From Verrucomicrobiaceae bacterium (GTDB taxonomy: Bacteria; Verrucomicrobiota; Verrucomicrobiia; Verrucomicrobiales; Verrucomicrobiaceae), in assembly GCA_029865835.1 (NCBI GenBank), contig JARXAL010000224.1:1-45537 (forward strand): a DNA stretch of 45,537 nt, in the 5' to 3' direction. The notes beneath the pieces were generated by a model that was given only the letters and a program-made list of their open reading frames with translations, was not told the DNA's origin and searched no databases. This document shows, piece after piece, positions 40,840-45,537 of this stretch. Made by a program: the position numbers and the translations under genes. Within the stretch, counting starts at the first letter, position 1. The number at the start of each line of letters is the position of its first letter.

Positions 40840-43068
40840 TCAAACACCAGCCATCGCCAAATTTCGAGGCATGGATTCCACTTCGCACGCCCCAAATTGC
40901 CCCAAAATCGGCCTTTCGCAAGCCACCGTTGCCTGCCTGCTCCCCCACGCCCCCTCCGCCGCTTCCGCCGCCCGGCAAATCCACGCAAACACCGTCTGAT
41001 ACGCTTCCTCACAGCGATCCGAAACCGCCATCGCCGCATGCCCACTCGCCACCGACTCCGCCTGCGTCTCCCACCCCGGAAAACGCACGCCCTCCGTCAA
41101 CCACTGCGCCAAAGACATCCCCGGCTTCATCGGTGCCTCCACCTGCTCCAAATCCGCCAACAAACGCCCCATGCAATGCCGAATCTTCGGCACCAAATAC
41201 TCCAAAGCCTTGCCCTGCGCCTCCAACTCACTCCCCGCCTCCGCATGCTTGAACCCATCCACCTGCCCATCCAGCCCCAGTGACTCCAGCGCAAACACCA
41301 GATTGCGCATCTCCCACAGCACCGGCACCCGCGCCGACAGCGCCCCATACGCCATCCCCCACATCGGCAGCATCGCCGCCATCTCACCCAACTCGCCCGC
41401 GCAGCTCCCCGCTGGCCGGCTCATCATCAACCCCAGCGCCGCCGCCAATCGCCGCTCCATGTCCGCCTCAATCGCCCTCAGCGAATCATCCGAATGCTCC
41501 ATCGTGATCATCTGCCGATCAATCTCTTCCCGGTAAACCGCCGCCTCATGCGTCCGCAATCCATACTGCCTCGGATCCATCGGCATGCCCGCCAGCGCAA
41601 ACGCGTGCGCCATCTCCAAATCCCGACACCGCTGCCAAGCCATCGTCCACTCCTTCTGCACGATCCTCGCCTGCTCGCCTCGCTCCGCCATCATCCGCCG
41701 ACTCACCACCAACTGCTCCCTCATCTCCTCCTCCGTCGGCGTCGAATGCCCCTCTTCCACCAATCCGCACATCGGCCTCAGCGGATGCGCCAAACCTTCA
41801 AAATACCGCTGAATGTCCGCCAAAGCCACCTCATCCACCTTCCGCTGCGTCCCCTCACCCACCGCCACCAGTCGAATCAGATTCAGCGACAGCCCCAAAT
41901 CCTGTTGGTAATGCGTCTGCGTCAGCTGCCGGCAAATCTCCTGAAACCGGCGCACCAGCGCTGAGGCCGCCCCCCCTTCATTCAGCATCGCCTCCCCGCC
42001 TTTCTTCAAAGCCCACACCCTCCGCTTCTCCGTCTCCTTATCCTCGATCTCGGACACCTCTCCCACCAACGCCATCTCCTTGATCGTCTGCAGCACCACA
42101 TTGTCCGGCATCCGGTCCGTGTTCATCCCCTCCTCCAGCTTCCCTTTCACCGCCAAGCTAGCCAGCCGCAGCCGTTCCTTCGTCAGCAGCAACGCCGCAA
42201 ACCCTTCCCCACCCAGCATCTTCACCCCCGCTTTGTCACACGCCAGCTCGATCTCACTCAGCGCTGGTCGTGTCATCACACGCCCCAAGATCAGCATCAT
42301 CCAAATCGGCCGCCGCGTTAGCCACTCGTAGCCCTTCGCCAGCTTCATCACCGCTGGCCGCTGCCACCAGCTCTTCTTCCGCTTCGCCAATCCTTTGTAA
42401 CCCTTGTTCGGCCCCAAATCCACCTTCGCCTGGTGCTCCCCGCTCGCCGCCCGGTTCAACCACCGCATCACCCCTTCCATCAGCCAGTAACACCGACCAC
42501 TCACCCCCGCTGGCGACAGCCCCAAACTTGCCATCAACTCAGTCGTCAACTGCCCCTCACTGCAAACCCCCACCCAAGACGCCCCCACGGTCAGCCGATG
42601 CCTCCCTCTCAATCCGCCAATCACCCCGCCCAATGGCTCCAACCGCACCCCGCATCCCGAATCCAAACAAACCTCCACCGGCTTCGGCGCCTTCGTCTGC
42701 TCCACCGCAATCAAGACCGTCTCCATCCACTCCGGCTGCGCCCCCGGATGCATCTCCAGCTTCGAAATCGGCTTCTCGCCCTTCATCCAAAACGGCTTGA
42801 AAAACCAAATCCAAGTCGCCCCTCCCAGCATCAATCCCGCGCAAATCCCGATGTTCTTCCCGCCCCACCCCGGCTCCAACGCCCAGCGCTCAAACGTTTG
42901 CATCGTCGTCGTCACCAGCATCCACGCCGTCCAACCCAAAAACGCCAAATAAAGCATCGGCACCAACAAAACCAGCAACCCTCCAACCATCACCCGAATC
43001 CGGGTCATCATGGGCCAACGAAACGCTTGCGGCTTGTGGGAATCGGAAGAATCAGGCATCAGAATCAC
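40840..43068 (-). CDS. Large membrane protein resembling an M48-type peptidase without HExxH
   Basis: Two N-terminal TMs; HRLTVGASWVGVCSEGQLTTELMASLGL where M48 proteins have LTVG...LxxVLxHExGH; LSEIELACDKAGVKMLGGEGF resembling the downstream E..AD.aa motif. Confidence 0.5.
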   Translation of the reverse strand: MILMPDSSDSHKPQAFRWPMMTRIRVMVGGLLVLLVPMLYLAFLGWTAWMLVTTTMQTFERWALEPGWGGKNIGICAGLMLGGATWIWFFKPFWMKGEKPISKLEMHPGAQPEWMETVLIAVEQTKAPKPVEVCLDSGCGVRLEPLGGVIGGLRGRHRLTVGASWVGVCSEGQLTTELMASLGLSPAGVSGRCYWLMEGVMRWLNRAASGEHQAKVDLGPNKGYKGLAKRKKSWWQRPAVMKLAKGYEWLTRRPIWMMLILGRVMTRPALSEIELACDKAGVKMLGGEGFAALLLTKERLRLASLAVKGKLEEGMNTDRMPDNVVLQTIKEMALVGEVSEIEDKETEKRRVWALKKGGEAMLNEGGAASALVRRFQEICRQLTQTHYQQDLGLSLNLIRLVAVGEGTQRKVDEVALADIQRYFEGLAHPLRPMCGLVEEGHSTPTEEEMREQLVVSRRMMAERGEQARIVQKEWTMAWQRCRDLEMAHAFALAGMPMDPRQYGLRTHEAAVYREEIDRQMITMEHSDDSLRAIEADMERRLAAALGLMMSRPAGSCAGELGEMAAMLPMWGMAYGALSARVPVLWEMRNLVFALESLGLDGQVDGFKHAEAGSELEAQGKALEYLVPKIRHCMGRLLADLEQVEAPMKPGMSLAQWLTEGVRFPGWETQAESVASGHAAMAVSDRCEEAYQTVFAWICRAAEAAEGAWGSRQATVACERPILGQFGACEVESMPRNLAMAGV

Positions 43069-43198
43069 GATTGTTTATTCTAGTAATTATATTGGAGATG
43101 CTAAACATTGCAAACGCAAATCTTACACCCCACCCCTTTTGCTCCCACTTCCTGCACGATTTCCCGCTCAGCCAACGTAGGTATTTTTACCCCCCCAA

Positions 43199-45537
43199 AT
43201 GCCCCTCCGCTTCCTCCTTCTCCTCTTCCTCGTCACCGCCGCCCAGGCCGCCCCCGACTGGAAACCCGTCGCCTCCGCCATCGATGCCACCTGCCTCCAG
43301 TGCCATAGCGACAAAAAAACCAAAGGCGGCGTCAACCTCCAGCCTCTCCTCTCCGATCCCCAGGTCGAAAAGGAATTCGCTCTCTGGGAAAAAGTCCGCC
43401 AAGTCGTCGAAGCCGGCGAAATGCCCCCCGAAGACGCCGACGAAATCCTCCCCGCCGAAAAAGCCGCCCTCATCGCCTGGGTCAACGCCTCCCTGACCGA
43501 AGTCGCCAACCGCAACGCCGGCGACCCCGGCCCCGTCACCCTCCGCCGCCTCACCAACTTCGAATACGACAACACCATCCGCGACCTCACCGGCCAGGAC
43601 TACCGCCTCTCCAAAGAATTCCAACCCGACGGCGGCGGCGGCGAAGGCTTCTCCAACATCGGCGACGTCCTCTTCGTCAGCCCCCAGCAACTCGACAAAT
43701 ACCTCAAAGCCGCCCGCACCCTCGCCGATCACGCCACCATCCTCCCCGGCACCGGCGTCCAGTTCCACCCCCAGCGCATCGGCCTCCGCGGCGCCAAACA
43801 AATCAAAGACCAATCCCAGCAGGCCCTCTACGTCTGGTATCAAAAAGCCGCCACCCCCCTCCTACCCAAAGACGGCGAAGACTTCCGCGAGGACGACTAC
43901 ATGCTCGCCTGTTGGAAATGGAAACACAAGGACCTCACCGGCGCCCAATCCCTCGCCCAACTCGCCACCGACGCCAAACTCGTCCTCCCCTTCCTCGAAA
44001 ACTGGTGGACCATGCTCCACAACACCAAACTCGAATCCCGCTACCTCGACCTCACCCGCACCCCCTGGCACAACCTCCCTCCACCCGCTGCCGACAAACC
44101 CACCGAAGTCCCGCAGGCCGTCACCCAAACCCTCGCCAACATCAAAGCCGAACGCCGCTCCTGGCTCGGCGAAAAAGACCCTGGCACCGGTGTCCAACGC
44201 CGCCAGCAGGACGCCGACGGCCTCCGACCCTACAAACTCGCCGACCCCTTCGCCCGCCATGACGAAGACTGGGACGGCGCTGGCAGCGGCCTCCCCAACC
44301 AACCCAAAATCGACAAACCCAAACACGTCCACCTCGTCCTCGGTGACCTCGGCGACGGCAACAAAGGCGACTACGTACACGTCAACGACCTCAGCTTCAC
44401 CATCGCCGGCAAAAACCATGAATACTTCTCCTTCATGAAGCAGCGCCGCGACGCCAATCGCAAACTCCTATCCGAAATCGAAGCCGGCAAACCCGCCCCT
44501 CCAAACGCAACCCCCGCTCTCCTCAAAACCTGGATCACCGAAGCCGACCAGGCCCTCGCCCACTTCGGCAAAGACCCCCTCGGCAAACCCATCAGCGAAA
44601 AAACCCTCGCCCGCCAGGCCCCCGCCATCATCACCCTCCCCCTGCCCGAAGGCGTCACCCGCATGTACGGCTCCGCCAAACTCGACCTCACCAACCCCGA
44701 CGCCGAACACGCCACCGTCCAGTGGACCCTCACCCTCGCTCCCCCTCCTGACCCCGCCACCATCCTCCCCGGCATCCTCACCATCTGGAAACGCCAAACC
44801 GAAGCCGCTCGGCGCACCATGAACGACTTCAACCGCATGAAATCCGCCTTCCCCGACGTCCTCGAACGCCGGCTCGAAGAAGTCGCCAACAACCTCCAAC
44901 GCAACGGCCAGCCCGGCCTCGGCGTCTACTACTTCAACGACACCCAACTCGCCACGGTCCTCCCCGAAGCCGAAAAACAAAAACTCCAGCAAATGCGCGA
45001 CGACTGGGCCTACAACTCTCCCGCCCAGCTCAACAAACAAAAACAGGACGAGTACCACAACCGCCTCCGCACCCACCTCCACCGCTACGCCGACTGCGCC
45101 TGGCGCCGCCCCACCACCCCCGAAGAAAAAACCCAGCTCACCAAACTCTACGACACCTCCCTCACCGCCGACCTCGGCCCCGAAGCCGCCGCCCGCGAAG
45201 TCCTCGTCCGCATCCTCGTCTCTCCCCACTTCCTCTACAAAACCGAAACCCTCCCCACCGTGGAGCAAGCCGCTGGCTTGCCTCCCAAAAGTGACGCGGA
45301 CACTCCTGTCCGCCCCATCCCAGATTCCCAATCCGAAATCCAAAATCCGCAGCCGAGCGGAGCGAGACAGATAGCCGAAGCCAACCCGAAGGGCCCAGCG
45401 GGGACGCCGGGTCAATCCGCACCCCCCAATCCGCAATCCGCAATCCCTTTACCCCCCCACCAGCTCGCCTCCCGCCTCTCCTACCTCCTCTGGTCCTCCA
45501 CCCCCGACTGGCCCCTCCAGAAAGCCGCCCTCGACGG
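43199..45537 (+). CDS. Secreted cytochrome-c-like (PSCyt) DUF1587/DUF1592-type protein, 3' truncated by window edge
   Basis: Signal peptide MPLRFLLLLFLVTAAQAA; heme motif CLQCH; VTLRRLTNFEYDNTIRDLTG (DUF1587); ALDRRP-type W-R-R-P block (CAWRRPTTPEEKTQLTKLY), EVLVRILVSPHFLYKTE, LASRLSYLLWSSTPD (DUF1592). Frame checked to the window end. Confidence 0.88.
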   Translation, partial: MPLRFLLLLFLVTAAQAAPDWKPVASAIDATCLQCHSDKKTKGGVNLQPLLSDPQVEKEFALWEKVRQVVEAGEMPPEDADEILPAEKAALIAWVNASLTEVANRNAGDPGPVTLRRLTNFEYDNTIRDLTGQDYRLSKEFQPDGGGGEGFSNIGDVLFVSPQQLDKYLKAARTLADHATILPGTGVQFHPQRIGLRGAKQIKDQSQQALYVWYQKAATPLLPKDGEDFREDDYMLACWKWKHKDLTGAQSLAQLATDAKLVLPFLENWWTMLHNTKLESRYLDLTRTPWHNLPPPAADKPTEVPQAVTQTLANIKAERRSWLGEKDPGTGVQRRQQDADGLRPYKLADPFARHDEDWDGAGSGLPNQPKIDKPKHVHLVLGDLGDGNKGDYVHVNDLSFTIAGKNHEYFSFMKQRRDANRKLLSEIEAGKPAPPNATPALLKTWITEADQALAHFGKDPLGKPISEKTLARQAPAIITLPLPEGVTRMYGSAKLDLTNPDAEHATVQWTLTLAPPPDPATILPGILTIWKRQTEAARRTMNDFNRMKSAFPDVLERRLEEVANNLQRNGQPGLGVYYFNDTQLATVLPEAEKQKLQQMRDDWAYNSPAQLNKQKQDEYHNRLRTHLHRYADCAWRRPTTPEEKTQLTKLYDTSLTADLGPEAAAREVLVRILVSPHFLYKTETLPTVEQAAGLPPKSDADTPVRPIPDSQSEIQNPQPSGARQIAEANPKGPAGTPGQSAPPNPQSAIPLPPHQLASRLSYLLWSSTPDWPLQKAALD
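45262..45452. repeat. In-frame REP-like palindromes and phased AATCC repeats inside the cytochrome-c CDS
   Basis: Palindromes GCAAGCC-GCT-GGCTTGC (45265-45281) and GCGGACA-CTCC-TGTCCGC (45296-45313); AATCC at 45330, 45337, 45344, 45414, 45428, 45435, 45442, all in the same 7-nt phase. Confidence 0.8.

Follow-up and report, generated by a model that had tools for sequence, protein, structure and literature searches.

Putative REP-type repeats read in frame within an enlarged linker of a PSCyt1/DUF1592-type protein gene of a Verrucomicrobiaceae bacterium

REP sequences are short stem-loops thought to be mobilised or amplified by REP-associated tyrosine transposases, which are single-strand-acting Y1/HUH enzymes. 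Cyanobacterial STRR sequences consist of 7-nt tandem units dispersed between genes. REP doublets are designated REPINs, and RAYT genes flanked by REPs are designated REPtrons (PMC3116915, PMC6006769). The location of REPs in frame within genes was reported in 2013, with UvrA among the hosts; published tags of REP superfamilies are GTAG or CGTC, the highest intragenic GTAG count belongs to Opitutus terrae (Verrucomicrobia), and intragenic REP clusters encoding 43-82 aa are present in Thauera and Rickettsia conorii (PMC3733652). Rickettsia palindromic elements (RPEs) lie in frame in many unrelated genes and encode a conserved peptide (Ogata et al., reviewed in PMC10969869). With in-frame REPs and RPEs already reported, the kind of insertion described here is known. 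The unusual parts are the strand lock, the single reading frame and the reuse of one linker; no report of a strand lock together with a single frame and one linker reused by several repeat families was found in a limited literature search.

The window, i.e., the whole stretch of 45,537 nucleotides analysed, is the complete contig C178 of a 4.01-Mb MAG from Verrucomicrobiaceae with 292 contigs (G000). The host gene starts at 43199, its 3' part is lost at the contig end, and its frame stays open across a repeat mosaic at 45260-45446, in which hairpin A, hairpin B, array D, module C, and again array D follow one another in frame. The features are as follows:

43199 to 45537, plus strand: host ORF, coding for a PSCyt1/DUF1587 (PSD3)/DUF1595 (PSD5)/start of DUF1592 (PSD4) protein of which 779 aa are visible; the frame runs open into the contig end
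45260 to 45285, plus strand: hairpin A (putative REP), GTGGAGCAAGCCGCTGGCTTGCCTCC, read as VEQAAGLP(P)
45287 to 45313, plus strand: hairpin B (putative REP) with GTGAC tag, AAAAGTGAC and GCGGACACTCCTGTCCGC, read as SDADTPVR
45330 to 45350, plus strand: array D, part 1, three heptamer units of (AATCCGC)n type
45350 to 45413, plus strand: module C, CAGCCGAGCGGAGCGAGACAGATAGCCGAAG...GGGCCCAGCGGGGACGCCGGGTC, read as QPSGARQIAEANPKGPAGTPGQ, often with D units at its borders
45414 to 45446, plus strand: array D, part 2, AATCCGC units that keep the 7-nt phase of part 1, read as SAPPNPQSAI

Three domains of the host ORF scored above their Pfam gathering cut-offs, namely PSCyt1 (27.3 against 22), PSD3 (82.7 against 23), and PSD5 (54.3 against 34.2); PSD4, interrupted by the contig end, reached 22.8 against 23.3. 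Orthologous open frames of the same genus are 1,077-1,138 aa long. The AlphaFold2 model of the host protein, computed from an alignment of 10 sequences, is too poor as a whole (mean pLDDT 52) for the values of 23-30 in the linker to do more than suggest that this part is disordered. No match below E = 1 was obtained when the model was compared with PDB in Foldseek, and an Rfam search of 43000-45537 at the gathering level gave no match.

The repeats as such were described correctly in the first-pass annotation. There are two perfect palindromes with 7-bp stems, GCAAGCC-GCT-GGCTTGC within 45262-45285 and GCGGACA-CTCC-TGTCCGC at 45296-45313, and seven AATCC units in a single 7-nt phase (at 45330, 45337, 45344, 45414, 45428, 45435, and 45442), where about 0.5 would be expected in 191 bp. 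The 26-nt pattern of hairpin A occurs once in the window and in none of 100 shuffles; in the genome, the heptamer pattern gave 207 matches and the B pattern 11, while their reversed controls gave 0. A chance origin of the repeats is excluded. All genomes of relevance here are MAGs, but the same modules are in frame at the same place in the independent assemblies G000 and G001, which argues against an assembly artefact. A blastn search of the window's own genome gave matches at 56 places, each part of the mosaic recurs elsewhere in this genome, and the repeats are located between genes, too. In orthologues, the inserts are absent or present in other amounts. Thus, neither of the outcomes named beforehand as speaking against a repeat origin, an unrelated linker of equal length in all orthologues or a lack of further copies, was found. 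What had been seen as one repeat cassette does consist of repeats in frame, but of several families: the two REP-type hairpins, the heptamer array D, and module C.

Compared with the intragenic REPs (PMC3733652), the hairpins are similar in being short, transposase-flanked, mostly intergenic, and in some cases in frame, including in UvrA. They differ in their tags (GGAG/GTGG/GTGA), in having one orientation on the C-rich strand in this genus instead of forming inverted dimers, in being mixed with a heptamer array, and in using a single reading frame. From the Rickettsia case they differ in that almost always one reading frame and one DNA strand are used. As in RPEs, the repeats are in frame in unrelated genes and encode a conserved peptide; by description, however, an RPE is a single element of about 150 bp, while hairpins of 18-26 nt in a 190-bp mosaic are found here. 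Array D resembles STRR sequences, compared by description only, in its dispersed intergenic heptanucleotide tandem units, but its unit is AATCCGC, it is strand-locked, and it enters coding sequence.

The linker that follows the LYK/FLYK motif is 33 aa long in G003, 75 aa in the window, and 102 aa in G001, all of the same genus; the protein of G003 is 96% identical to that of the window over the matched part and that of G001 93%, and the DNA flanks of the linker are near-identical in the same-genus alignment. Most other relatives have a linker of 21-25 aa, as counted where the motif search worked. The proposed gain of about 64 codons was too high, since the 75-aa linker exceeds that of the nearest orthologue by about 42 aa and the typical length by about 50 aa. 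Nor is the linker a new creation, as had been proposed; relatives already have 21-25 aa at the same place, and it was therefore enlarged. In the G001 linker, two A-B units form a 63-bp tandem, accompanied by a further B and by the same module C. An additional in-frame B is present in G001 near residue 300 of the host protein, where G000 and G003 have a short native form.

The G003 linker contains CACCGGCATAGCCGC and keeps ACCGGC-NNN-GCCGC, a remnant of the B tail; the motif CGGC-NNN-GCCGC follows B in over half of the listed B copies. G003 is thus apparently a reduced form and not a site that was never occupied. A clean pre-insertion site with target duplication was not found among the orthologues, the nearest of which (G003) retains the remnant within a diverged surrounding linker. 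Judged from these alignments, the cassette is probably older than the three species and was probably shortened in G003; overall, growth is suggested by the shorter linkers in other genera. Five orthologues from a second genus (L075-L079) have linkers of 62-89 aa. B-type palindromes are present in L076, L078, and L079, with the readings AGTPAR, GTPAR, and ADTPVR; L077 has a different palindrome, present twice, and no palindrome was found in the P/A/S-rich linker of L075.

Y1 transposase genes (PF01797) were identified in 36 of the 38 genomes searched, and all those scanned clear the Pfam cut-off. On contig C226 of G001, a Y1 gene is preceded by five A-type hairpins and followed by two; with a score of 82.8 it is the only one of the scanned Y1 genes to pass the cut-off of 80 for NCBIfam REP_Tyr_transpos. 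B hairpins border Y1 genes on contig C8 of G001 and in G005, G017, and G023, and these B-flanked genes score 58-66 in the same model. The B tags, GGAGC and GTGAC or GTGAT, are common to these genera; none of the constant tags beside the hairpins (GGAGC, GTGAC/T, GTGG) is GTAG or CGTC. Hairpins of 24-26 nt (A) and 18-27 nt (B) in many dispersed copies agree with the REP size of about 20-40 nt, and the same hairpins adjoin REP-associated tyrosine transposase genes. The copies between genes, when the four repeat types are pooled, lie in 28 '++', 12 '--', 18 convergent, and 5 divergent gaps, as expected of REPs, which lie mainly in unidirectional and convergent gaps and rarely in divergent ones. 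A and B are taken to be REP sequences, and Y1 transposases may have moved the copies in the window. For C and D, no mover was demonstrated.

A REPIN arrangement was found for B in G005, as inverted pairs separated in most cases by about 131 bp at dozens of dispersed places, and for one pair at L331 (G001). The inverted B pair of G005 resembles REPINs and REPtrons in its almost constant spacing and in its position beside a Y1 transposase gene, which it flanks. Copies in the window and on the contigs scanned in G000, G001, and G003 are, unlike REPINs, direct and strand-locked, with the inverted pair at the transposase locus L331 as one exception.

Other transposase loci have related or different hairpins. 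At L330 and L329, a transposase that G000 and G003 share at one chromosomal position is bordered by GCAAGCATCTTGCTTGC, which is A-like with the loop ATCT; in G001, true A hairpins lie beside a transposase upstream of what is apparently the same neighbouring gene. The same-genus Y1 genes at L169, L172, L173, and L174 have strings of other hairpins on both sides, partly mirrored, and neither A nor B.

On the contigs of G000, G001, and G003, 129 merged copies were counted (A 27, B 26, C 26, and D 50, with a few loose matches included in the A and B counts). These contigs were chosen for their matches, a choice that favours no orientation. The GC skew of the window is -0.25 to -0.44 throughout, independent of gene strand, and its absolute value is mostly 0.3-0.42 on the contigs of the three genomes and mostly near 0.1 or below at the loci of G002 and other genera; about 2.5% is stated as typical of bacteria in the SkewDB report (PMC8941118), so that the asymmetry in this genus is extreme and far exceeds the usual few percent. 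All 129 copies have the same orientation relative to the skew. To avoid circularity in the orientation test, the stems, which are symmetric, were searched alone; on the C-rich strand, the loop was GCT in 30 of 30 A-type hairpins and CTCC or CCCC in 14 of 14 B hairpins, and D arrays were on this strand in 47 of 47 cases. The exception is the inverted B pair at the B-flanked transposase locus L331, located in a weakly skewed stretch (0.14). In other genera, B has both orientations. Two module C copies of the same orientation, 409 bp apart, were also observed in a 6.6-kb stretch of G001 without called genes (L189:8139-8613, contig C14).

The skew presumably marks the replication strands. IS608 and ISDra2 use the lagging-strand template (PMC6006769), so replication-coupled insertion would, by analogy, be a reasonable cause of the strand lock; strand-specific decay or slippage are the alternatives.

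Genes were called by our own procedure, in which the two strands have separate codon models because coding composition is strand-dependent, and N-terminal extensions of some calls may be false. A large portion of the copies on the match-selected contigs is within called genes, which because of this selection is no genome-wide estimate. An extra 739-kb sample of G000, mostly of unselected contigs, contained 5 A, no B, and 5 D, so that most of the statistics rest on the match-selected contigs. Hosts of in-gene copies include UvrA, an FAD-dependent protein, a family-4 glycosyltransferase, peptidase U32, a XylR-like regulator, MoxR AAA, DUF1501, and other PSCyt proteins; the repeats are thus inserted in frame in unrelated protein genes, as RPEs are. 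The unrelated glycosyltransferase gene has the A-B spacing of the linker unchanged, 34 nt. The distance from the ABC signature to LLLLDEPTTGLH in UvrA is about 32 residues, compared with about 7 in solved UvrA structures. Among UvrA genes, a UvrA-type ORF of 1,972 aa (L216:1910-7825, contig C199 of G000) holds three or more in-frame repeat inserts, one of which separates the ABC signature from Walker B. The UvrA of another genus has an in-frame B hairpin read as SEAGTPARSS (L318:1-1374, contig C31 of G017), much as REPs were reported in UvrA of Opitutus terrae (PMC3733652).

The stop-free property of (AATCCGC)n, noticed in the first-pass annotation on one strand, holds for both strands, and A, B, and D, read directly, are without stops in every frame of both strands. 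This permits insertion into coding sequence, but it is not the whole constraint, since A and B are read in one frame though all are open. All 15 genuine in-gene copies of A, at about seven gene loci, were read as VEQAAGLP or a close variant. In-gene B, present at about six to seven sites, was read as ADTPVR in 10 of 11 copies, and the remaining copy is at a doubtful ORF start. Two in-gene A matches with 5 mismatches (GASRWLAV and GASILLAP) were judged native or due to chance and excluded from the frame count. Because copies within one gene are non-independent, loci were counted rather than copies, and with three equal frames the chance of a single frame comes to about (1/3)^6 for A and about (1/3)^5 for B; the two values are not simply multiplied, as A and B sometimes travel together. 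All in-gene copies of A, B, and C accepted as genuine run in the sense direction of the host gene, and opposite-sense genes make up about 46% of the called coding bases in the 739-kb sample. Other frames of the repeats would encode peptides rich in Trp, Cys, or Leu, and their selective removal would be the simplest reading of the frame bias. The sense bias is explained only in part.

The extra linker is probably coding sequence of REP-type repeats that were inserted in a tolerant loop and then reshaped. In an ancestor of the genus, one or more repeat copies would have entered the loop that separates the DUF1595 helices from those of DUF1592, at a place tolerant and already variable, where length and frame of the insert kept the ORF open. 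Later changes at the site would comprise a tandem duplication (the 63-bp A-B unit in G001), the expansion of array D together with module C, and a deletion in G003. Slippage or recombination may have enlarged D and the A-B tandem, the linker would be disordered and nearly neutral to the host protein, and selection would remove the other frames and the opposite sense. Against this explanation speak the failure to find a clean pre-insertion site, the tags that depart from the published ones, the NCBIfam scores of the B-flanked Y1 genes below the cut-off, the lack of a demonstrated mover for C and D, and the ATCT loop of the A-like hairpins beside the transposase of G000 itself.

That the linker is an ordinary fast-evolving Pro/Ala/Ser-rich stretch, similar to repeats by composition and slippage, would fit the strong C bias of the genome and the variable length and P/A/S-rich character of this linker in relatives such as L075. 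Its probability is negligible, because exact copies of A, B, C, and D are found outside the host gene; exact matches of several families to intergenic copies, with none for the reversed controls and, for A, none in shuffles, the identical A-B spacing in the glycosyltransferase gene, and the position of the same hairpins beside transposase genes effectively refute it. Domesticated functional repeats, selected for their peptides (VEQAAGLP and ADTPVR) or for mRNA hairpins as a spacer, processing site, or mRNA control, would account for one reading frame across many unrelated genes, for their reappearance in this linker in a second genus, and for the sense-only placement. This explanation is nevertheless improbable, as only a remnant is present in G003 and nothing in other relatives, the hosts are functionally unrelated, and the removal of Cys-, Trp-, or Leu-rich alternatives accounts equally for the choice of frame.

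The strand lock of all families, the non-palindromic D included, together with the direct arrangement in this genus and the tandem expansion of the A-B unit, is what would be expected if the repeats spread without a transposase, by template switching linked to replication and by slippage on one strand, and transposase genes acquired the same hairpins. In several genomes, however, Y1 transposase genes have A or B on their flanks, and B is dispersed in G005 as inverted pairs with nearly fixed spacing, the arrangement known for REPINs and REPtrons, which makes a spread of this type rather unlikely. Insertion of REP-type repeats into a tolerant loop remains the preferred explanation. A broader proposal is more tentative and somewhat doubtful: in this clade of extreme replication-strand asymmetry, REPs and heptamers may be deposited or retained on one replication strand and enter genes in the sense direction and in a single frame only; single-strand transposition coupled to replication would then be a polarised generator of linker peptides, with joints reused across genera.

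A small selfish DNA would thus have repeatedly lengthened a protein joint that is presumably flexible and disordered. The locus is a well-resolved case of non-coding mobile DNA turning into protein sequence, with close relatives at different stages and with identifiable transposases. A link to the replication fork is documented for IS608 and ISDra2 (PMC6006769), none for REPs was found in a limited literature search, and the strand lock would offer a direct test of REP movement tied to the fork. In some Verrucomicrobiota, repeats that are named extragenic can make up a noticeable fraction of a protein.
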